A model generated the notes under the pieces. It was not told the origin of the DNA, searched no databases, and saw only the letters and a program-made list of their open reading frames with translations. Positions 29,814 to 42,286 of a stretch of 60,945 nucleotides of DNA are shown here, piece after piece. This stretch comes from a bacterium. GTDB taxonomy: Bacteria; Verrucomicrobiota; Kiritimatiellia; CAIKKV01; CAITUY01. The translations under genes were made by a program, and so were the position numbers. The stretch lies in NCBI GenBank assembly GCA_037143175.1, contig JBAWZF010000016.1, positions 1-60,945 on the forward strand. Direction: 5' to 3'. Within the stretch, counting starts at the first letter, position 1, and each line of letters opens with the position of its first letter.

Positions 29814-30395
29814 ATGAGTGTAAATAAATGGATGTTGGGAATGGTGGCGTTTGTGGCGACCTCGTTGACGGTTCAGGCTGCTTCTGAGGAATTTTATTTT
29901 GTAAAGACTAAGGGTCTGGATAAACAAATCGAAGTGAAGACGATGTCGGCGACAGAATACAAGGCGCTCGAGGCGGTTATCAAACTTGAACAGAAATATT
30001 TACCGGCGGCCGTGGCAGAGGCGGCGAAAGAGTGGCGCGCGGATGAACTCAACAAAGGCACTCCTTTTCTCGGGAATCGATTGACGCCCCGTACGATCCT
30101 GACCTCGATGAAATATTCAACCTCAGAAAAAGCCGAAGAGGCGCTCTCAAAATATGAGGAGCTCCAGTCGAAGAAAGAGGAGCGGGAGTTCAAGAAGAAT
30201 AAAACAAAGGGCAAGGGCAAAGATAAGGATAACAAGGACGCAGATCTTCAGGCAGCCTTGGATCTGGTTCAGCCCAAACTTGATGCCTTGATTGCCAAAG
30301 CAGGCGGTGCGGGTGGTGGCAAAGATGCCGCCCCGGGTCTCGAAGTCCCTGGTGGTGCCAAGGTAGGTGCCGCTGTTGAAAAGGTGGGCAAATAA
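29814..30395 (+). CDS. small secreted lysine-rich protein of unknown function
   Basis: I do not recognise this 193-aa protein. It has a signal peptide ending near VQAASEE. A moderately conserved-looking globular part with helices follows (residues 25-105). Next come a strongly basic stretch rich in Lys/Glu (about 110-140) and a Gly/Ala/Pro-rich tail. It is likely periplasmic or surface-exposed. GGAG lies 6 bases before the ATG. It is followed after 47 bases by the MscS-type channel gene on the same strand and may be part of that operon. Confidence 0.7.
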   Translation: MSVNKWMLGMVAFVATSLTVQAASEEFYFVKTKGLDKQIEVKTMSATEYKALEAVIKLEQKYLPAAVAEAAKEWRADELNKGTPFLGNRLTPRTILTSMKYSTSEKAEEALSKYEELQSKKEEREFKKNKTKGKGKDKDNKDADLQAALDLVQPKLDALIAKAGGAGGGKDAAPGLEVPGGAKVGAAVEKVGK

Positions 30396-30442: not shown

Positions 30443-31987
30443 ATGATGGAATTAGCAATGTGGACGTTGGTGCAGGAGGGGGGGCGGTTCGACTCCGTCA
30501 GTCTTCTGGTCCGGTTTGGTTTATTTATTTCGGCATATCTGGTCTTTTCGGTGGCCCAGCGATTCTGGATCCAGCAACGGCTTCTCCGCAATGTCAGCTT
30601 TCCCTTGAATTTGTTGATGATGGTGTTGCTGCTGTTGGTGTGCTTTAAGCCGCTCCTCAGTCAGTTGAATCCTTACGTTCTTAATGCGATTCTTGCGGCT
30701 GCGATTTTTCTTGGAGCCTCTATCGGTCTTAAAGGTGCTGATGTTTTTCTTTTTGATGTGATGGCCCAGTGGAGGAAGCGCCCCCAAGTACCGCTCCTAT
30801 TGCGCGATATCGGGCGTTGGGTGCTCTCCCTGGTGGCACTGATCCTGATCATTCGCGGTTTTTTCCCCGGAGTGAATCTCGATATTTTCGCCATGTCGTC
30901 GCTGGTCGTTGGCTATATTGTTGGTAATGCGACGCAGGACACATTGGGGAATTTATTTGCCGGTCTGGCGCTGAATACTGAGCGTCCATTTCAAATTGGC
31001 GATTGGGTGACGGTGAGCGGCAATACGGGGCGCGTGGTGGATACAACCTGGCGTGCGACGAGGTTGCGCACCAAGTCCGAGGATTACATTATTATTCCTA
31101 ATGCTTCCATCGCACGGGACGCGATTATCAATTATTCCAGGCCTACCACGCAGCATGGGTGCTATCTTCCCATCGGTGTGGATTATGAGAGTCCGCCTAA
31201 TGCGGTAAGGAGCGCCATACTGAGTGTATTGGCGGATATCCCGGAGGTGTTGAGTTCCCCCGCCCCTGTCGCTAATCTTACGGGGTATGGTGATTTTTCG
31301 ATGAATTTTACGATTAAGTTTTTCATCGCAGATTATTCTCAACTTGATCCAATTCAAAGCATGGTCATGGATCGGCTTTGGTATGTGTTTAAACGCCAGG
31401 GAATTGGAATCCCCTATCCCATTCAGGATGTGAGACTCAGCAATCGGGTGGTAAGTGAGCGAAATATCCTTGAGGTCAATCGCAAGGCGGTGCGGGACCT
31501 CGTGAAGCGGGTGGAGTTGTTTCAATCCTTGTCTGATGCCGAATGTGAAGGGTTGGTTGCTTCGGTGGATACTGTGCCCTTTGCAGCAGGAGAAACTCTT
31601 TGTCGTGAGGGGGACCCCGGTGATTCGTTTTATGTGATCCGGTCTGGAACAGTGGTGGTGAAAATCCGCGGTACTGATGGGGTCTCAGTTGAAGTGGCGC
31701 GACTGTCAAAAGGCCAATTTTTCGGTGAGATGTCATTGCTTACCGGAGAGCGACGTATGGCCTCGGTGGTGGCTGATGAAGATGTAGAGGTGGTGCGGGT
31801 GTCGAGTCAGGACTTTGCCGCTTTGCTCAAGGCGAATTCCGAGTTGGCCAGCAAACTTGCGGCTGCGCTTGAAAAGCGGTTAGCCGGGCGCCAGGCCCAT
31901 CTGGCGATCTCATCAACGAAAATGCCTGTGCCGGAGAATCAATCTATGCTTGCCGCGCGGATCCGGCGATTTTTTGGGCTCGTTTAA
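30443..31987 (+). CDS. MscS-family mechanosensitive channel with C-terminal cyclic-nucleotide-binding domain
   Basis: The 514-aa protein has about four to five N-terminal membrane helices, then the MscS pore helix and beta domain (SSLVVGYIVGNATQDTLGNLFAGL, then ERPFQIGDWVTVSG). About 130 residues of cytoplasmic vestibule follow. From residue ~350 it carries a CAP_ED domain: LFQSLSDAE, EGDPGDSFYVIRSGTVVV and the phosphate-binding cassette FGEMSLLTGERRMASV. Such channels can couple turgor sensing to cyclic nucleotide levels. The next gene starts 13 bases after its stop. Confidence 0.92.
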   Translation: MMELAMWTLVQEGGRFDSVSLLVRFGLFISAYLVFSVAQRFWIQQRLLRNVSFPLNLLMMVLLLLVCFKPLLSQLNPYVLNAILAAAIFLGASIGLKGADVFLFDVMAQWRKRPQVPLLLRDIGRWVLSLVALILIIRGFFPGVNLDIFAMSSLVVGYIVGNATQDTLGNLFAGLALNTERPFQIGDWVTVSGNTGRVVDTTWRATRLRTKSEDYIIIPNASIARDAIINYSRPTTQHGCYLPIGVDYESPPNAVRSAILSVLADIPEVLSSPAPVANLTGYGDFSMNFTIKFFIADYSQLDPIQSMVMDRLWYVFKRQGIGIPYPIQDVRLSNRVVSERNILEVNRKAVRDLVKRVELFQSLSDAECEGLVASVDTVPFAAGETLCREGDPGDSFYVIRSGTVVVKIRGTDGVSVEVARLSKGQFFGEMSLLTGERRMASVVADEDVEVVRVSSQDFAALLKANSELASKLAAALEKRLAGRQAHLAISSTKMPVPENQSMLAARIRRFFGLV

Positions 31988-32000
31988 AAGAATTTGGATC

Positions 32001-35000
32001 ATGAGAAAAATTCTAGTTATTGGGCTCCTGTCCGCCTTATGTGTTTCGCGCTCTGCTTTCCCGGATGATGGCGCTTTAAGCCATGCGTCTCAGCAAGGTG
32101 TTTTTCAGATTGCGGGTGCCTCAGCCTCACTCACTCAATCCAATCGGGCATGGCAATTTCAATTTTCCCTGCCTCCCGGGGCGGCGGCAGGTATTTGGGC
32201 CAAATATACGGAAACGGATGGGCTTCCATCCAAGGCTCATGTATTGCGTTATGACTATGAACTTGCCCGCGATACCCCGATTCCTTTGCGTGTCAGTTGG
32301 GAAATCAAGGGATCATCAGGGGTACAGACTATTCCGCTGGTACTGCGGAAGCGGCAAGGGCAGGGGAAGCTGCTCATTGATGCCGCCCGCATCGGTTCCT
32401 GGAATGAAACCGTGTTGGTTGTCGCGCATCCCGGGGGGGCAACCGCTCTTTCAGGTGGACTTGGGATTAAAACCAAACTCGTGGTTTGGGCGCCTTGGCG
32501 GCTGGTGTTGGCCAGTCCCTTCGGACGCTGGCTTTGCTTGCTAGCGACCGCGCTTCTGGCGGCCGCCGTGGCGGGCGTCATGCGGCGCGCAAGGGACTGC
32601 GCACCCTGTGCACACCCCGACAAAGTCGGACTCAAACAGGGCTGGCAGCGGGATCTCATTTTCGGATTAGCCTGTGTCCTGGGCGTAGGGGCGATGCTCG
32701 CCATGTTGGCAAACGCCAATACGAGCCCTGGGCGGTCTCCGTTAACAATTATAGGGGTGTCGTTAGCCGGGGCCTTGATGGCCGCCTTATTCACCCGGCT
32801 TTGGGCGGGACGCGGGCCTACTGCGGCGGAGTCTTTTCAACATGTGATCATTCCCGGCCTCTTGATGGTGGCAGCGAGTGATCCGGCAATTTGGACGGCC
32901 GCTACAGAATGGGGTGATCTGGGGCAAATGACCCGGTTGAGCGCTGTTGTGTTCTGGGCGCTGTACCATGTGACCCATGTGCGACGTCTGTTGGCAACGC
33001 AGCATCCGTTGGATGCTGTAACGGGATTGCGTCTGGTTTCGATCCCCTTTCTATTTGGGCTCCTGCTGGCTCTTCCCAATCGCGACCTGATGCTGCAGGC
33101 TGGTTCACTACTGCTGCCCGGCGTGTGGGGCGGGTATGAGCTCAGAGTGGTTGTGGGCCGGATGTTGATGTTAATGATATTTAACCTTGGGGCCGCCGCA
33201 GCATGTGGCCGGAGGGCGACCACCGCCGGTGGAGGGGGAAACCTATGGGGGGCAGGCTCAGCCAAAGTGTTGGTGGCCGTTGCACTGGCCGTTGCCGTCT
33301 CTCCCATCATTGCCAATATGGGGGCTGGCCTCTATGACCTTCCTGGTTTCCTGCAGCCGCTCGCTTCTGTTGTCGCCACCATGCTGTCACAAGGATTGTT
33401 ATGGGCTGAAGCCTACCTGTTAACCGGCATGCTGTTAGATGCCATGCATCGCAGGACGCTACAATCGTTCGCCTTGACGGATTCTGCTCATAAAGGATTT
33501 CGTAATGGCCTCGTTTTCAGCGGGTGGTTCATGGGGTTGTTGCAATTGGGACAACTGTTAGCAGCCTCTTCCCTCTGGATGCAGGCCTATACTGCTGCTC
33601 CTTATTTAGCATGGGCATGTTTGGGTGCCATTACGTTTCCATTGATCAAAACGATTATTGAGAGTTTTGACGGGAGCCCCTCGTTTGTCCGGCGCTTGTT
33701 CCGTAATTATTGCAGGCCAGCCCTGACATTGCGCGGAGCGACGGTTGGCCTCGTCATTGTCTGGGCCTGGAGCCACCAGTTTATTGACTGGGATCTCCCC
33801 GAACGGGCCGGGGCGGGGTTTGTAGCCGGGGTATTGGTTTATGCCGGCATGAGTATTTTGAGTGATGTGGGGCGTGTGGCTGTCGGGCGTGGGAGCCTGG
33901 CAGGGTGGCGGCTTTATGGGGTGGAGGCGGTATTGGGGGGGCTGGTAGGGGCGGCCTTGGGCTTCTATTTCGATGCGGCGCAAACTCCGGTGGTGGCCAC
34001 GAAGTTGGCGGTTTACTGTGGATATGGAAAGGCCTCCATGCCCTACGATGTGTATCCGCTTTTAAGTCGTTGGGGTTTTCTGAGTTTGGGTGACTATATG
34101 GGCGGGGCAAGGCTGTTATGGAATGAGGCCTTGGCTGGTGTCATTTCCTGGGGCGTGGCAGCCTGGCTGTTTGCAATCAATAAGTCCTTCCTGCTGGCTG
34201 TGTTTCAACGCGAGTGGGCGCCGGTACGTCGTCTGGCATCGCGTGAGGGGGTGGCGGAACTGGCGGATGGGACCATTTTTGTCCTCCGCTGGGGATTATG
34301 GATGGCACCTGTTATTTTTACGTTCCTGCGCCAGATGCCCGTGCCTACCTGGTATAATCAGGACGGTGCGATTCGCACAATTTTTTGCGTGGCACAAACC
34401 GGCCTTTTGGATGGATCTGCCTTTACGGCCTGGAGTTTGAAAGTATTCATGTGGGTTTTGGCCTATGATACGTTTCGCGTGTTGATCTGGCTGGATCATA
34501 TGGGTTTGAGGGTGGCCACGCTTGTGAACCTCAGCTTTCTCGGTATGGATCGGCTGGATGAGCGTGTATCACGCTTCCTTGGTTCCCACGCTGCTGCCCG
34601 CTTTATTCCGGAGGGGATCAAACGATTTACCACATGGGCTCCCTTATTGCTTCCCTTTTACATTCCCGCCGGGGCGGCTTGGGATCAGGTTTGGGATCAG
34701 TCAAAAGCCCTGCAGTTATCTGCGACACCGTTAGTTGAACGTATTTGGGGACAGTCGATTGGTGCCGGCTTGCTTGAAGGTGGTGTGATTTTTGTGGCTG
34801 TTGTGTTGTTGGCTTCCGCTTGGCGTATCATGCGTGCCCGGGGAGAGATTCCTGCTGACGTGCCGGAGTTACAGAATAGCGTCTATGCGTTTTCCATACA
34901 GCCTGGAGGGGCACCCCGTGCCGAGTATCTGACGCAACAATTTGATGTCCATCGGCGTTCATATGAAGGTCGTGATCCTGCGGGGCGCGCATTTTTCTTA

Positions 35001-38000
35001 GTGGATGAAATTCCGGATGCCTCCGGGAAACACCGGGTTTGGCCGGTGTTGGGTAACTTCCCGGCGGAGATCGGGCCACAGCCTGAGGTGCTGGATGAGG
35101 GCGACCATCTGCGGTTCCTGCATGCTCAGCATGAAATTAAAGCCAATATCAGCGTAACCTTGCCGGATGAGGGGTTGTCGCTTGAAGCCTGGACGGTGAC
35201 GGTTCGTAATACGGATGAGAGGGTCCGCTCTCTATGTTTGGTTCCCTATGTGGAATGGTCGCTGAACAGCATGGATGCTGATCGCGGGCATACCCAATAT
35301 AACAGGTTGTTTCCGGATGTGTCTTTCCTGCCTGAGTTGAACGCTGTGGTCGCGGTGCATCATACCAGTAAGTTGGCTGGATTTCTGGCCGCAGATCGTG
35401 CTCCGGAGGGGGTGCATGTGGCACGTGTTGAATTCATTGGGCGAGCGGGCTCGTTGTGGGCACCCGAAGCCCTGCACGAAATGCAGTGGCGTGAGCCTGT
35501 GGCCCTGGCACCATGCCCCATGTTCGATTGTATCGGGAGTTTGGCCTTGCGGTTGGAACTTCCGCCCGGCGGCGAGTTGACGGTGCGTCTATGGGTGGGC
35601 TGTGCGACGTCGCGTCAGGCTGCCGAGGCCATGGTAAAAGCCGCTTGCCCGCCTGGTCTTCCACGTCCAGTATCCCCGGCCACCGGATTGCGCATCGGGC
35701 ATGGGCGACCCCCGCGGGGTATGGTGGGACCCTATACCCGCTTCGATGAGGGGGGGCGTGTGATGCGGGTGCTGACGCCCTTTACGCCGCGTCCGTTTGA
35801 TCACACCTTGGCAAATGCATTGGGCCATGTGATGGCGGTTACGAATCGTGGTTTACATACTTCATCCAGTGTGAATTCCCAGCAGAACCGGCTGACTCCT
35901 GACTGGGCGGATACCACGACCCGTGAGTTACCGGGTGAGGCCATCTATCTGTATGATCGCGATAACAATCAGTGGTACTCGCCTACTTATGAGCCCCTGC
36001 GTTCGCCGGGTGCTGAATATGAGGCCGATTTTCGGACTGATGGCACGGCGGTGTTCCATATGCGGCACGGGACGTTGAGCAGCGAATTGACGGTGTTTGT
36101 TCCGCCTGATGAGGCAATCGGTGTGTATCAGTTGAAGTTGCGTAATGAGGGTGACCAGGTGCGGCGTTTTTATTGTGCCCCATATTTCCAGATTACTTTG
36201 GCGGCTCAGCCTGAACACTCCGGGGTGTTACATCGTTATCCGGCCTCGGTAGGGCATGGCTGGTTGTTTGAGAATCCCCGAAATACATTCCGCTCAGGGC
36301 CCGCCTATGTGGCGGTGACGCCGGGGCCCGAGGCGAGTACGACCCGGCGAGGTGAATTTTTCGGGGCTGGCAGGACAGTCGCTCATCCAGTCTGGGTGGA
36401 GGGTGCGGTTGGCTTGCTTTTAGATCGAGATGATCAGGCTGTTGTCGCATTCAGAATCGCGCTGGATATCCCGCCTCATTCTGAGCGTGAAGTGGTTGTG
36501 GTACTGGGGCAGGCTGGATCCCGTGTGGAGGCCGAACGGCTGATTATTCGCTATGGTGAGACCGGACATGCGGCAAGTCAGCTTGAGGCGACCCGCCGCT
36601 GGTGGAACGGGTTTATGGGGACGCTGGTGGTAGAAACCTCCGATCCGGCCCTGGATAGCTATTTGTACTGGCTACGTTACCAGGCGCTGGCCGAGCGCAT
36701 CTGGGCGCGTAAAGGGTTCTATCAGGCCAGTGGTGCTTTCGGGTTCCGTGATCAGTTACAGGATTCGGTAAATCTGATCTGGGTGGATCCGGCATTGGCA
36801 CGGCGTCAGATTCTGCTCCATGCCGCTCAGCAGTTTGTCGAGGGGGATACCGTGCATTGGTTCTTCCTGCAACAGGACGGGCGCTCCAGTTTTTCCAGCC
36901 GCTCACATGCCTGTGACAATCTGTTGTGGTTGGGCTGGGCGGTAGCGGAATATGTCCGTATGACAGGGGATGAAACGCTGTTGGATGAAACGGTGCCGTA
37001 CCTGGATGCCGAGATTCCCCTGTTACCGTTGCCTGAGGGCAAACAGGGTATGGGATTCTTTCCCCTTCGATCCACCCGGGCAGACTCTGTTCTGGATCAC
37101 GTGCGACGGGCGTTGGATCTGGTCTTGCACAAGCGGATGGGGGCGCATGGCTTGCCCTTGATGGGAACTGGCGATTGGAATGACGGACTGGATGAAATTG
37201 GCAGTGAGGGGCGTGGTGAAAGTGTGTGGATGGGCTTCTTCCTCTACTACATTTTGCGCGAGTTGATGCCCTTGCTGGAGCGACACTGTAAGCCGCGTCA
37301 TGCCGCGGAGTACCGGCAGCGTAGGGAGGTGTTAGGGGTGGCCATTAACGCGATGTGGCGGGAGGATCGGTATTTGCGAGCCATTCACGATGATGGTACC
37401 GAGATCGGGGTTAAAGGGAGTGGGATTTGGGAAGTGGATGCCCTGACAGCTGCCTGGGCGGTTTTTTCCGGTATTGATAAGGAGCGGGGAAGGACGATGT
37501 TTGATACCGCGCTTCGGACATTGGAGCGGGATAACGTGATTTTACTCGGTTGGCCGGCCCTGAATGAGCAGACCAAACCATTTCTCGGGCGGAGTTGTCG
37601 CTATCCTGAAGGTGTGCGCGAGAATGGGATGTACTGCCATGGGGTCCAGTGGATGGTGGGGGCGGCCCGGCAGTTGTCGGAAGAATGGGCGGCAGCGGGG
37701 GATGAGGTTGCTGCAAAACAATACCGGGAAACGGCGATACGGTTGTGGCGTAAGATTTCACCGCTGGAACACACAACGCCCGACCAGATCGAGCGTTATG
37801 GAGGGCAGCCGAATAAACAGGCGGCAGATTTCCTGACGACTTATGAGCCCGGACGGATGATATGGAATGGCTATACCGGGGCGGCCGCCTGGATGTTGAG
37901 GCAGGCGCTGGAAGGTGTTGTGGGGGCGAAACTAAAGGACAACCAAGTACACCTGCCGATTGATTTTACGGAACCTCGTGGTGAGTTGCGGGTGTTGAAG

Positions 38001-38033
38001 GTGTCGCGCAATTTGACGGAAAGTCCCCTTTGA
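32001..38033 (+). CDS. giant membrane protein with C-terminal GH94 glucan phosphorylase module, NdvB-like without synthase domain
   Basis: This 2010-aa protein starts with a signal peptide and a beta-rich domain (to about residue 160). Roughly 790 residues crowded with membrane helices follow, then two consecutive GH94-type beta-sandwich domains (about 957-1215 and 1250-1490) and an alpha-helical barrel domain (about 1520-2010). The barrel contains FRDQLQDSV, HWFFLQQDGRSSFSSRSH and GTGDWNDG with Asp 1725 and 1728, as in GH94 phosphorylases and the C-terminus of cyclic beta-1,2-glucan synthase. I see no GT84/GT2 synthase domain. The downstream gene overlaps its stop by one base (TGATG). The start at 32001 is chosen over 31950 because a signal peptide begins there. 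Confidence 0.85.
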   Translation: MRKILVIGLLSALCVSRSAFPDDGALSHASQQGVFQIAGASASLTQSNRAWQFQFSLPPGAAAGIWAKYTETDGLPSKAHVLRYDYELARDTPIPLRVSWEIKGSSGVQTIPLVLRKRQGQGKLLIDAARIGSWNETVLVVAHPGGATALSGGLGIKTKLVVWAPWRLVLASPFGRWLCLLATALLAAAVAGVMRRARDCAPCAHPDKVGLKQGWQRDLIFGLACVLGVGAMLAMLANANTSPGRSPLTIIGVSLAGALMAALFTRLWAGRGPTAAESFQHVIIPGLLMVAASDPAIWTAATEWGDLGQMTRLSAVVFWALYHVTHVRRLLATQHPLDAVTGLRLVSIPFLFGLLLALPNRDLMLQAGSLLLPGVWGGYELRVVVGRMLMLMIFNLGAAAACGRRATTAGGGGNLWGAGSAKVLVAVALAVAVSPIIANMGAGLYDLPGFLQPLASVVATMLSQGLLWAEAYLLTGMLLDAMHRRTLQSFALTDSAHKGFRNGLVFSGWFMGLLQLGQLLAASSLWMQAYTAAPYLAWACLGAITFPLIKTIIESFDGSPSFVRRLFRNYCRPALTLRGATVGLVIVWAWSHQFIDWDLPERAGAGFVAGVLVYAGMSILSDVGRVAVGRGSLAGWRLYGVEAVLGGLVGAALGFYFDAAQTPVVATKLAVYCGYGKASMPYDVYPLLSRWGFLSLGDYMGGARLLWNEALAGVISWGVAAWLFAINKSFLLAVFQREWAPVRRLASREGVAELADGTIFVLRWGLWMAPVIFTFLRQMPVPTWYNQDGAIRTIFCVAQTGLLDGSAFTAWSLKVFMWVLAYDTFRVLIWLDHMGLRVATLVNLSFLGMDRLDERVSRFLGSHAAARFIPEGIKRFTTWAPLLLPFYIPAGAAWDQVWDQSKALQLSATPLVERIWGQSIGAGLLEGGVIFVAVVLLASAWRIMRARGEIPADVPELQNSVYAFSIQPGGAPRAEYLTQQFDVHRRSYEGRDPAGRAFFLVDEIPDASGKHRVWPVLGNFPAEIGPQPEVLDEGDHLRFLHAQHEIKANISVTLPDEGLSLEAWTVTVRNTDERVRSLCLVPYVEWSLNSMDADRGHTQYNRLFPDVSFLPELNAVVAVHHTSKLAGFLAADRAPEGVHVARVEFIGRAGSLWAPEALHEMQWREPVALAPCPMFDCIGSLALRLELPPGGELTVRLWVGCATSRQAAEAMVKAACPPGLPRPVSPATGLRIGHGRPPRGMVGPYTRFDEGGRVMRVLTPFTPRPFDHTLANALGHVMAVTNRGLHTSSSVNSQQNRLTPDWADTTTRELPGEAIYLYDRDNNQWYSPTYEPLRSPGAEYEADFRTDGTAVFHMRHGTLSSELTVFVPPDEAIGVYQLKLRNEGDQVRRFYCAPYFQITLAAQPEHSGVLHRYPASVGHGWLFENPRNTFRSGPAYVAVTPGPEASTTRRGEFFGAGRTVAHPVWVEGAVGLLLDRDDQAVVAFRIALDIPPHSEREVVVVLGQAGSRVEAERLIIRYGETGHAASQLEATRRWWNGFMGTLVVETSDPALDSYLYWLRYQALAERIWARKGFYQASGAFGFRDQLQDSVNLIWVDPALARRQILLHAAQQFVEGDTVHWFFLQQDGRSSFSSRSHACDNLLWLGWAVAEYVRMTGDETLLDETVPYLDAEIPLLPLPEGKQGMGFFPLRSTRADSVLDHVRRALDLVLHKRMGAHGLPLMGTGDWNDGLDEIGSEGRGESVWMGFFLYYILRELMPLLERHCKPRHAAEYRQRREVLGVAINAMWREDRYLRAIHDDGTEIGVKGSGIWEVDALTAAWAVFSGIDKERGRTMFDTALRTLERDNVILLGWPALNEQTKPFLGRSCRYPEGVRENGMYCHGVQWMVGAARQLSEEWAAAGDEVAAKQYRETAIRLWRKISPLEHTTPDQIERYGGQPNKQAADFLTTYEPGRMIWNGYTGAAAWMLRQALEGVVGAKLKDNQVHLPIDFTEPRGELRVLKVSRNLTESPL

Positions 38034-40102
38034 TGAAACGAACCTTGCATATTTGTATTGTCGGTCTGGCACTGGTTGCCAGAGGTGTTATAGGTAGTGA
38101 TCCGGCACCTTCTCAATTTTCTTTGCCCACCATCAAGCCGCAACATATTCACATGCGGCAATTGGTTAAGAATGCCTTGGGCTATATCAAGCCGGGGCAG
38201 GGGTTGTTTGACGAGGTGTCAGGATATCCGGTTGAGGGGTGGAATGATGACGATCAGTCCGGCCTCCAATTACGTGGATTTACCCAGCTTACCACGGTAG
38301 GTGAATGGCTGGAATTGCTGGCCCATATTGCGGCAGGCTGTGCCGATCAACCTTATTTGTCGAGGGGCGAAGCCCTTATCCAGCTTGATCGTGTGACTCG
38401 ATCTCTGCTTCATGATCAGGCGGATCCTAATCTCAGTGATCGTGGGTTATTGTGCAACTTTATCGGATTCGACAAAGGTCGCCGTATGGCACCACTGGCC
38501 TCTGATGCTTATAAGCAGGATTTTGTTGAAGCGTACGGAGCGCAAGAGGGGCTAGAGGTTTGGCGGGCCCTTGAAAAATGCGGTTGGGTTCGGCCATGGG
38601 CGAATGACGAACAGGGCGAGATTATCCGTGGGCCGGGATTTGGCTATGGGCAGGCATGCTTTAAGGGCGTATTGGCTCCGTATGCGTCACATGATGGCCA
38701 GATCAAAATCATGACGATGCTTGATCGGCGCGTGGTGCAGGTAGTTTTTGGTGATAACGCCAACTTAAGCGCTTCAGTAGCAAAGACCATAGGGGTACTT
38801 TTGAAGCCGGAAGTAGCAAATAATCCCTTGGCTAAGAGCATCCGGGGGAGATTGGAACAGTTTTTAGATGCCCAGCGGCCTGGTTATCAGTATCTCTATG
38901 ATTCCAAGCGGGGGCTTTTTCGCTTTGGGTGGAATGCCACCCATAAACAGTATCTGGGGTGGGGTGATCCCTCAGGAGTGTGGCAGGTTGCGTTTGCTGA
39001 TTATTACGTCAACGAATTCCGGGGCCCCCTCCAATTTGTTCTGATCCGGTTCGGTTTTCCGGATGACCCACTGCGGTATCAGGCGTTTAAGGTAAAATCC
39101 CGGGTCATGACCAGTGGGCAGGAACTCTTTACGCTGGGCTTGTGGGAGGGTTCAGCCTTCCAGGCTCTTGGCCTTTCGTTGTTTATGGGTGAGCGCTCCA
39201 TTCCCGGATGGCGGGCGAATCTTGAAAATACCGTGCGGATCAATTTGGACTATTCCCGTGAACATAAGTTGCCGGGATTTCTGTCAGAGGCCTACAGTGG
39301 GAATGGCAATCAGTACAGTGGCAAGATTGGGGTACCGGAACTTACGGTCGTTAATGACCCTCGAATCACTAATGCCCCGTCAATTTACACACTGGGGGTG
39401 GCCTACAGTATCTTACCAGATGAGATGGAGTCTTTCTTGCTAGACAACTGGTCTGCAATCTCATCCCTTTTTACGCAACATGGGCCCTGGGAGGGGACCC
39501 ACATGGTAACACAGCTACCCATTAAGTGTCAGACGGCCGTGCATGTCATGTCTCTGATTGTGGGTGGCTTGGGGGCGGGGGACGAGGCTATGGCACGATA
39601 TCTTGAACAGCGAGGGATGCTCGAGCGGTTGCGTGTGGTTTATCCCCGCGGTGAACCGGTAGATCTATTGGTTCCAGCGGTTCGCACAGTGGTTTGGTCG
39701 CCGGATGAAAGCAGGCTGGAGCTGAGTCGTGGGAACAGCGGATTTCGCCTGATGGGTGAAAACGTCCGGCAGGCAGCGGTGACTTGGATGGTAGATCAGC
39801 CAGTACAAGGGGTGTCGTTATCGGGCAATGTATTGCGGATCCGCTATCGGAATCGGGAGGCTGATCTAAAGGCAGTGATAAGTCTTGAGCGGCCTGTTTC
39901 AGATGGTCGAAGTGTATCTCAGGAAATATTTGTTAACCTCCGGCATACCCGCTGGCTTACGCAGGAACTTTGTATCCCTCTTCCCGCAACGCCAAGTCTG
40001 CTCAACATTCAAAAAGTGACACTTTTGTTGGGCTGTAAGGAGGGAAGGCAGAAGGTTGACTTGCAACTGACGCAGTTTAAAGCAGTATTATGCGCGGAGT
40101 AA
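38033..40102 (+). CDS. secreted (alpha/alpha)6-type enzyme candidate, coupled to the GH94 gene
   Basis: The 689-aa protein has a signal peptide. A helical catalytic-looking region follows, with aromatic and acidic clusters such as GWNDDDQSGLQLRGFTQ, FGYGQACFKGVLAPYASHDGQ, LWEGSAFQALGLSLFM and SEAYSGNGNQYSGK. A C-terminal beta domain of about 130 residues completes it. These patterns recall glycoamylase-like (GH144/GH189-type) glucan enzymes, but I cannot name the family with certainty. Translational coupling (TGATG) to the GH94 membrane protein strongly links their functions, probably on the same beta-glucan in the periplasm. Confidence 0.6.
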   Translation: MKRTLHICIVGLALVARGVIGSDPAPSQFSLPTIKPQHIHMRQLVKNALGYIKPGQGLFDEVSGYPVEGWNDDDQSGLQLRGFTQLTTVGEWLELLAHIAAGCADQPYLSRGEALIQLDRVTRSLLHDQADPNLSDRGLLCNFIGFDKGRRMAPLASDAYKQDFVEAYGAQEGLEVWRALEKCGWVRPWANDEQGEIIRGPGFGYGQACFKGVLAPYASHDGQIKIMTMLDRRVVQVVFGDNANLSASVAKTIGVLLKPEVANNPLAKSIRGRLEQFLDAQRPGYQYLYDSKRGLFRFGWNATHKQYLGWGDPSGVWQVAFADYYVNEFRGPLQFVLIRFGFPDDPLRYQAFKVKSRVMTSGQELFTLGLWEGSAFQALGLSLFMGERSIPGWRANLENTVRINLDYSREHKLPGFLSEAYSGNGNQYSGKIGVPELTVVNDPRITNAPSIYTLGVAYSILPDEMESFLLDNWSAISSLFTQHGPWEGTHMVTQLPIKCQTAVHVMSLIVGGLGAGDEAMARYLEQRGMLERLRVVYPRGEPVDLLVPAVRTVVWSPDESRLELSRGNSGFRLMGENVRQAAVTWMVDQPVQGVSLSGNVLRIRYRNREADLKAVISLERPVSDGRSVSQEIFVNLRHTRWLTQELCIPLPATPSLLNIQKVTLLLGCKEGRQKVDLQLTQFKAVLCAE

Positions 40103-41548: not shown

Positions 41549-42286
41549 ATGAATAATCTGATGAAGTCTTCGTTGATAGCGGCCATTTTGGTGGTGGGAA
41601 TGATTCTTTCGGCCTCCATACTTTCCAAATTATTTCTCCGCGTTCGCCATGAACAGGCGATTACGGTGAAGGGATATGCTGAAACGGACATCATGTCGGA
41701 TGTCGGCAAGTTTTCCAGCAGATGTAACGTACGCGGTGACAGCCTTAAGGATGCCTATGATAAGCTGCAGGTAAGCCGCAATGCCACTCTCGCGCTCTTA
41801 AAGCAGATGGGCCTGCGGGAGGATGAGACGGTCGTTCATACGATCGAGATTGGGAAAATCCCCAGGCGTGACAGCCAGGGGAAGGAAATGAATGAAATCG
41901 AATTTTACGACGTCTCCCAGGAAATCATGGTTACCTCTACCAATGTTGCGCTTATTCGTGATACTGCCACCCGCATCACGGAACTGATTCGGGACGGTGT
42001 GGATATCCAAGCCGCCCCTCCCATGTTTTTGGTTTCCGATCTAAAGGATACAAAACTCAGATTGCTGGCGCAGGCGACCGAGGATGGCTATCGACGCGCC
42101 CTGGCGCTCGCCCAGGGAAGCAAGGGTAAGATTGGTGCTTTGACCTCCGCCCAGCAGGGTGTTTTCCAGATTACCGAACGGCACTCAACCGACACCTCCG
42201 GCGGGGGGGAATATGATACTTCGGCCATAGAAAAAACCGCCAAAGCCGTCGTGACGCTGGAATACGCCATCGAGTCCGCCAAATAA
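41549..42286 (+). CDS. SIMPL (DUF541) domain envelope protein
   Basis: The 245-aa protein has one N-terminal membrane helix acting as anchor (residues 8-28) and an extracytoplasmic SIMPL domain. VKGYAETDIMSDVGKFS is its first strand, and LALAQGSKGKIGALTSAQQGVF is the helix-turn typical of DUF541/BP26 proteins. Relatives form channel-like or adhesin-like oligomers; the role here is unknown. A good AGGA precedes the ATG. Pyruvate kinase follows after 21 bases. Confidence 0.9.
   Translation: MNNLMKSSLIAAILVVGMILSASILSKLFLRVRHEQAITVKGYAETDIMSDVGKFSSRCNVRGDSLKDAYDKLQVSRNATLALLKQMGLREDETVVHTIEIGKIPRRDSQGKEMNEIEFYDVSQEIMVTSTNVALIRDTATRITELIRDGVDIQAAPPMFLVSDLKDTKLRLLAQATEDGYRRALALAQGSKGKIGALTSAQQGVFQITERHSTDTSGGGEYDTSAIEKTAKAVVTLEYAIESAK

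Follow-up and report, generated by a model that had tools for sequence, protein, structure and literature searches.

The question raised by this locus is whether three closely packed forward-strand genes, lying in a window of 60,945 nucleotides (the whole stretch of DNA that was analysed), encode a single system, and what such a system would do. A preliminary description had read them, as an MscS channel, a giant membrane GH94 protein and a secreted protein, to be a candidate osmoadaptation system resembling a split glucan synthase. All three open reading frames are present in the sequence. The channel gene (30443..31987) carries, by Pfam, MscS channel domains and a cNMP_binding domain. The mechanical start of the next gene, TTG 31950, overlaps the channel gene; its likely start is ATG 32001, which opens a signal-peptide-like sequence, MRKILVIGLLSALCVSRSA, giving a protein of 2010 residues (32001..38033) and leaving a gap of exactly 13 bases to the end of the channel gene (31987), the same spacing as previously reported. 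The third gene (38033..40102; 689 residues) starts at ATG 38033 (alternative TTG 38030), inside the TGATG stop/start overlap (38031..38035) that had also been noted and that couples it to the membrane GH94 gene. Scans of the locus for promoters and terminators gave nothing in excess of shuffled sequence.

Pfam recognised two GH94 supersandwich domains (34971..35600 and 35799..36509) and a GH94 catalytic barrel (36600..37925; PF17167, 203.6 bits against a cut-off of 27) in the membrane protein, so that the guess of a giant membrane GH94 protein held. The best solved relative of this half was the phosphorylase part of cyclic beta-1,2-glucan synthase (CGS) at 344 bits, compared with ~111 bits for cellobiose phosphorylase and 21.5 bits for SOGP. 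D1584 and D1728 of the barrel, both invariant among homologues, align with D2393 and D2528 of Agrobacterium CGS (counted along the alignment, with an offset of 19 between two CGS entries), which are the residues mutated in that enzyme, and the phosphorylase motifs FRD, GDWND, CHG and YTG are kept in the alignment. In a phylogenetic tree the membrane-GH94 domains formed one group (97/96) on a long stem, apart from both CGS (96/99) and the soluble phosphorylases, and we therefore assign the protein, on its sequence, to a GH94 subfamily of its own and not to broken CGS. The long stem would leave room for another specificity; phosphorolysis of a beta-1,2-oligoglucan by this part is suggested by genomic context.

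The resemblance to CGS (PDB 8rf9, PMC10901819) is nonetheless considerable, as both are membrane proteins whose C-terminal GH94 part comprises two supersandwich domains and a barrel, the catalytic Asp residues are conserved, and the set includes an SGL-clan activity. Unlike CGS, the membrane GH94 protein has neither a GT84 domain nor a GH189 cyclase domain on the same chain, a short linker seems to replace the Rossmann-like insert, the membrane region is different and much larger, a CBM-like head has been added, the SGL part is a separate secreted protein, and the GH94 part belongs to its own clade. The synthase domain had been described as missing, and indeed GT84 was absent from the protein and detected nowhere in the genome; a search of the window's genome (assembly 95% complete) with the GT84 region of CGS returned nothing, and no CGS, SOGP or PF10091 protein was detected there. 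A GT84 domain hidden in the membrane region was also considered and rejected, since BLAST against the GT84 region of a congeneric CGS gave no significant alignment.

The N-terminal half of the membrane protein begins with a signal peptide followed by a CBM-like beta-sandwich (aa 18-165; 32052..32495), identified by an AF2 model of the 956-residue N-terminal stretch (pLDDT 80.6) and structure comparison. Among solved folds it comes nearest, for the most part, to carbohydrate-binding modules (Z ~9-12.6 to CBM11, CBM29 and other CBMs), and since a signal peptide precedes it, the sandwich is predicted to lie outside the inner membrane and is probably periplasmic. The membrane domain that follows (aa 173-946; 32517..34838) has approximately 18-19 crossings, a count based on predicted helices and charge pattern and uncertain by one; its ~775 residues include more than 90 positions that are invariant across phyla, among which Trp, Tyr, Arg and Asp are frequent. 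This domain had no Pfam match, and a profile of it run against PDB sequences gave nothing. Foldseek and VIA, queried with a stretch that included the N-terminal sandwich, recognised no transporter fold, the rows being filled by CBM domains matching the sandwich, and a BFVD search likewise yielded alignments that were for the most part short and that we take to reflect the N-terminal domain. The lack of a fold match is no proof of a new fold, as the modelled membrane domain was searched only with the sandwich attached. SIDT1 was examined as a fold relative and was not credible (rmsd ~25). GH94 phosphorylases and the soluble domains of CGS are cytosolic; the segment after the last membrane helix is rich in Arg and Lys, and an SOGP that stands in for the barrel in one genus (G220/G236/G336) has, by eye, no signal peptide. 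For these reasons the GH94 part is probably cytosolic.

The secreted protein matched nothing in Pfam or NCBIfam, and a sequence search of the PDB gave EeSGL1 (E 3e-10), a biochemically demonstrated beta-1,2-glucanase of Group 1, named GH192 (PMC12102758). Its AF2 model (pLDDT 82.5) superposed upon EeSGL1 with Z 35.9 and rmsd 2.6 over 378 aligned residues, followed by the GH189 domain of CGS (Z 33.2), GH144/GH162 (Z 28-30) and PgSGL3 (23.6), with the next unrelated fold at Z 16.9. The model thus places the protein among the (alpha/alpha)6 barrels of the SGL clan, and the 'glycoamylase-like' label of the preliminary description is borne out by structure and not by Pfam. D241 and E328, invariant in 13 homologues, align with the general base D149 and general acid E221 of EeSGL1. 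With regard to the residues that define the clan, E328 fits the Glu (E239 of XcSGL) in the profile alignment, F376 aligns with the Phe (F286 of XcSGL) and is invariant in the 13 homologues, and the Tyr (Y367 of XcSGL) has two candidates, Y452 and Y458, both left by the sequence alignment. The protein is therefore predicted from its model to have beta-1,2-glucanase activity, having the fold and the catalytic pair of these enzymes. EeSGL1 (GH192; PMC12102758) is its nearest relative, sharing fold, general acid Glu, general base Asp and the conserved Phe; GH192 was the best match by both sequence and structure, although identity is low (~15-19%) and the secreted protein has an additional C-terminal CBM-like domain (aa 540-689, Z ~13). 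Judged by sequence, the protein may represent a new family of the SGL clan. Several of its homologues have lipoprotein-type signals, as read from their sequences.

We searched 388 genomes of the phylum for the membrane domain and for this SGL protein, and found the former in 11 and the latter in 10, each of these 10 being among the 11 (Fisher p 6e-19 by genome and 2e-9 by genus, uncorrected for kinship). Homologues of the pair lie together in the sister species (G004), in G003, in the three genomes of the genus mentioned above and in loci L042 and L054. One gene separates them in G055 and two small ORFs in G395, the SGL gene is ~41 kb distant in G032 and on another contig in G166, and G136 has a membrane GH94 gene without an SGL of this type. 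The pair is also carried by plasmids of a common replicon type in three Isosphaeraceae-type planctomycetes, Planctomyces sp. SH-PL62, Paludisphaera borealis and Aquisphaera giovannonii (L088-L090), with overlapping genes in two of the three (L088, L089). Both genes are annotated as 'hypothetical protein' in the plasmid records, and a GH94 gene on Isosphaeraceae plasmids has been mentioned, unanalysed, before (PMC5352709). Loci with membrane GH94 genes were labelled Verrucomicrobiota, Planctomycetota, Lentisphaerota, Omnitrophota, Elusimicrobiota, Auribacterota, Sumerlaeota and, in one case, as a gammaproteobacterium. Because homologues of the two enzyme genes stand side by side in several phyla, their arrangement is not due to chance, and the true unit is the pair of membrane GH94 protein and SGL protein.

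A wider set comprised 46 related loci from genome contigs, mostly of Omnitrophota. An SGL-clan gene was present in 38 of the 39 genomes reached through related loci, a count that alone is weak evidence since PF10091 genes are common in Omnitrophota genomes; in several Omnitrophota loci, a PF10091-type gene lies directly downstream of the membrane-GH94 gene. The relatives come mostly from MAGs, and in some of these the genes are interrupted by frame breaks or contig ends. No related gene was confirmed in viral contigs, and literature searches found no published description of this two-gene system. As a separate observation, Omnitrophota-type genomes of 1-3 Mb (those behind L043-L087) contain up to 7 PF10091 matches, some of them in open frames of several thousand residues.

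Beta-1,2-glucan is well supported as the probable substrate of the pair by three independent lines of evidence, and the refuting case named in the preliminary description, two enzymes with unrelated substrates, is not what was seen, as both point to beta-1,2-glucan. The first line is the SGL clan itself. The second comes from the genus G220/G236/G336 (L091, L092, L093), in which the membrane protein lacks the GH94 barrel and keeps a supersandwich remnant, and the adjacent gene encodes an SOGP, with the SGL gene alongside; SOGP_N was over cut-off in all three genomes, the G236 gene scored 753 bits to 5h3z, and L092 and L093 also have a PF10091 gene. SOGP (PDB 5h3z) is, like the membrane GH94 protein, a GH94 phosphorylase and has a close relative adjoining the barrel-less protein, whereas SOGP itself is soluble and very distant in sequence. 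The third is G166, where an OpgG (GH186) gene immediately precedes the membrane-GH94 gene. Across genomes the association of OpgG with the membrane GH94 protein is only suggestive, with opgG in 6 of the 11 genomes that have the membrane domain and 74 of 377 others (p 0.012), a difference that is not significant by genus (p 0.15).

The OpgG/OpgD-OpgH system (GH186 and GT2; PMC10514313, PMC11842490) likewise concerns envelope beta-1,2-glucan; OpgH is a GT2 synthase, in which no homology to the membrane GH94 protein was seen. The window's genome has opgG, a conserved 200-residue gene and opgH on another contig, and can therefore probably make beta-1,2-glucan. The ORF of ~200 residues, without Pfam or NCBIfam match, stands right after opgG and mostly between opgG and opgH (L102:7295-7894; L104-L109, L111, L112, L114); it was found in most related genomes looked at and is possibly an unrecognised OPG gene. 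In several Omnitrophota loci the membrane-GH94 gene lies among ABC-permease-like and phosphorylase or glycoamylase genes, and the G236 locus includes an MFS_2 sugar transporter gene. Five Omnitrophota loci (L045, L046, L052, L065, L072) combine membrane-GH94 and ABC-permease-like genes with regulators and PF10091 proteins, three of them with a soluble GH94 as well, and loci of this type are likely beta-1,2-glucan utilisation loci.

On the domain identities, catalytic residues and conserved pairing established by computation we base a reading that we consider narrowly probable, namely a two-gene system for beta-1,2-glucan turnover, that is, depolymerisation and recovery. The secreted SGL-clan enzyme, with its barrel and CBM-like domain, would cut beta-1,2-glucan on the outer side of the inner membrane. 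The fragments would be held by the CBM-like head of the membrane protein, moved inward through its domain of 18-19 helices and phosphorolysed to glucose-1-phosphate by the GH94 part at the cytosolic face, so that some of the bond energy would be kept. Of substrate, cytosolic placement and inward transport, which we infer, the last is the least secure; as an ABC- or MFS-type transporter is already encoded in some clusters, import need not be the task of the membrane domain. In the window's genome, with its opgG-opgH genes, the pair may act on osmoregulated periplasmic glucan of the cell itself or, equally, on foreign beta-1,2-glucan that is taken up. More tentatively, and with less expectation of being right, we propose that the membrane domain represents a new glucan translocase family, physically joined to a cytosolic phosphorylase in an arrangement that would carry out vectorial phosphorolysis of emerging fragments without ATP or PTS. 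If true, such a translocase-phosphorylase would pull fragments of beta-1,2-glucan across the inner membrane and turn them into glucose-1-phosphate on emergence. Beta-1,2-glucans matter both in the cell envelope and in interaction with hosts and, to our knowledge, their recovery and turnover are poorly known beyond a few model gene clusters. A pair conserved in at least eight phyla is a direct candidate for their uptake or recycling, and in its membrane partner a single chain carries both a phosphorylase and a large membrane domain that falls in no recognised sequence family.

A serious rival, unlikely as we judge it overall, is that the pair synthesises or tailors glucan as an analogue of CGS without GT84, in which GH94, in the cytosol, would either polymerise from glucose-1-phosphate or trim a growing chain, the membrane domain would export the product, and the SGL enzyme would set its length or close rings in the periplasm. 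It is serious because phosphorylases are reversible, which makes synthesis possible, and because the membrane-GH94 gene of G166 follows the OpgG gene, the slot of opgH in opgG-opgH operons. The parts also mirror those of CGS (a membrane part, an SGL-clan domain and GH94), which the window's genome lacks among its detected genes, and SOGP-type phosphorylases run backwards in vitro, SOGP having been used in this way to make beta-1,2-glucan (PMC11842490). Set against this are the opgG-opgH genes already in the genome, the fact that EeSGL1 (GH192), which matched best among SGL relatives, is an inverting hydrolase, the catabolic appearance of several clusters, and the probable separation of the two enzymes by the membrane, an arrangement better suited to turnover than to synthesis. 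The earlier comparison with CGS stands with regard to separate membrane GH94 and glycoamylase-like parts, while a 'split synthase' is doubtful because the GH94 clade lies apart from CGS and the enzymes are probably on opposite membrane sides.

Less probable again is that the enzymes act as in the turnover reading and the membrane domain is a mere anchor or scaffold, placing the phosphorylase beside a separate transporter. The ABC-permease-like genes of Omnitrophota clusters and the MFS_2 gene of G236 would suit this, as would the persistence of the membrane protein without its catalytic barrel in G220/G236/G336; the number of invariant positions in the membrane domain is, however, much constraint for an anchor, and no annotated transporter gene adjoins the pair in the plasmid loci L088-L090.

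The channel, in contrast to the two enzymes, we judge to be a neighbour. A cNMP-MscS channel was present in 9 of 9 genomes searched of the same bacterial family, five of which (G001, G002, G006, G007, G008) lack the membrane-GH94 family, their GH94 matches being CGS-type or soluble. In G003 the channel is on another contig than the pair, and the pair is likewise without an adjoining channel in G055, L042, L054, L088-L090 and G220/G236/G336. Only here and in the sister species G004 does the channel adjoin the membrane GH94 gene, and its position is a local accident or a recent association common to G004. On this separate distribution, which the preliminary description had itself named as refuting, we reject the MscS channel as a component of the enzyme system, and the proposed set of channel and enzymes was not conserved together. 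An osmoadaptation system of all three proteins is thus highly improbable: the gene order kept in G004 and the 13-base spacing here speak for it, against a channel that occurs family-wide without the pair, a pair that occurs in several phyla without the channel, a channel-to-GH94 gap of ~0.3-0.4 kb in G004, and a channel with an upstream neighbour of its own, apparently also in G003. What endures of the original proposal is its envelope-glucan theme, through the genome's own opgG-opgH and the OpgG gene upstream in G166, and not the osmotic-channel link, which the distribution contradicts.

Domain searches and structure comparison otherwise agreed with that proposal, finding GH94 in the membrane protein, no GT84, and an SGL-clan fold in the secreted protein. 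The upstream neighbour of the channel is a secreted-looking protein of 193 residues and unrecognised family (window 29814-30395), which also precedes the channel in G004 and has a counterpart by position and size before that of G003 (L103:4204-4788); it is the probable real partner of the channel. Downstream of the enzyme pair lies a SIMPL-domain (DUF541) gene (window 41549-42286), and an ORF resembling it by eye follows the membrane-GH94 gene in another locus (L070:7098-7790).
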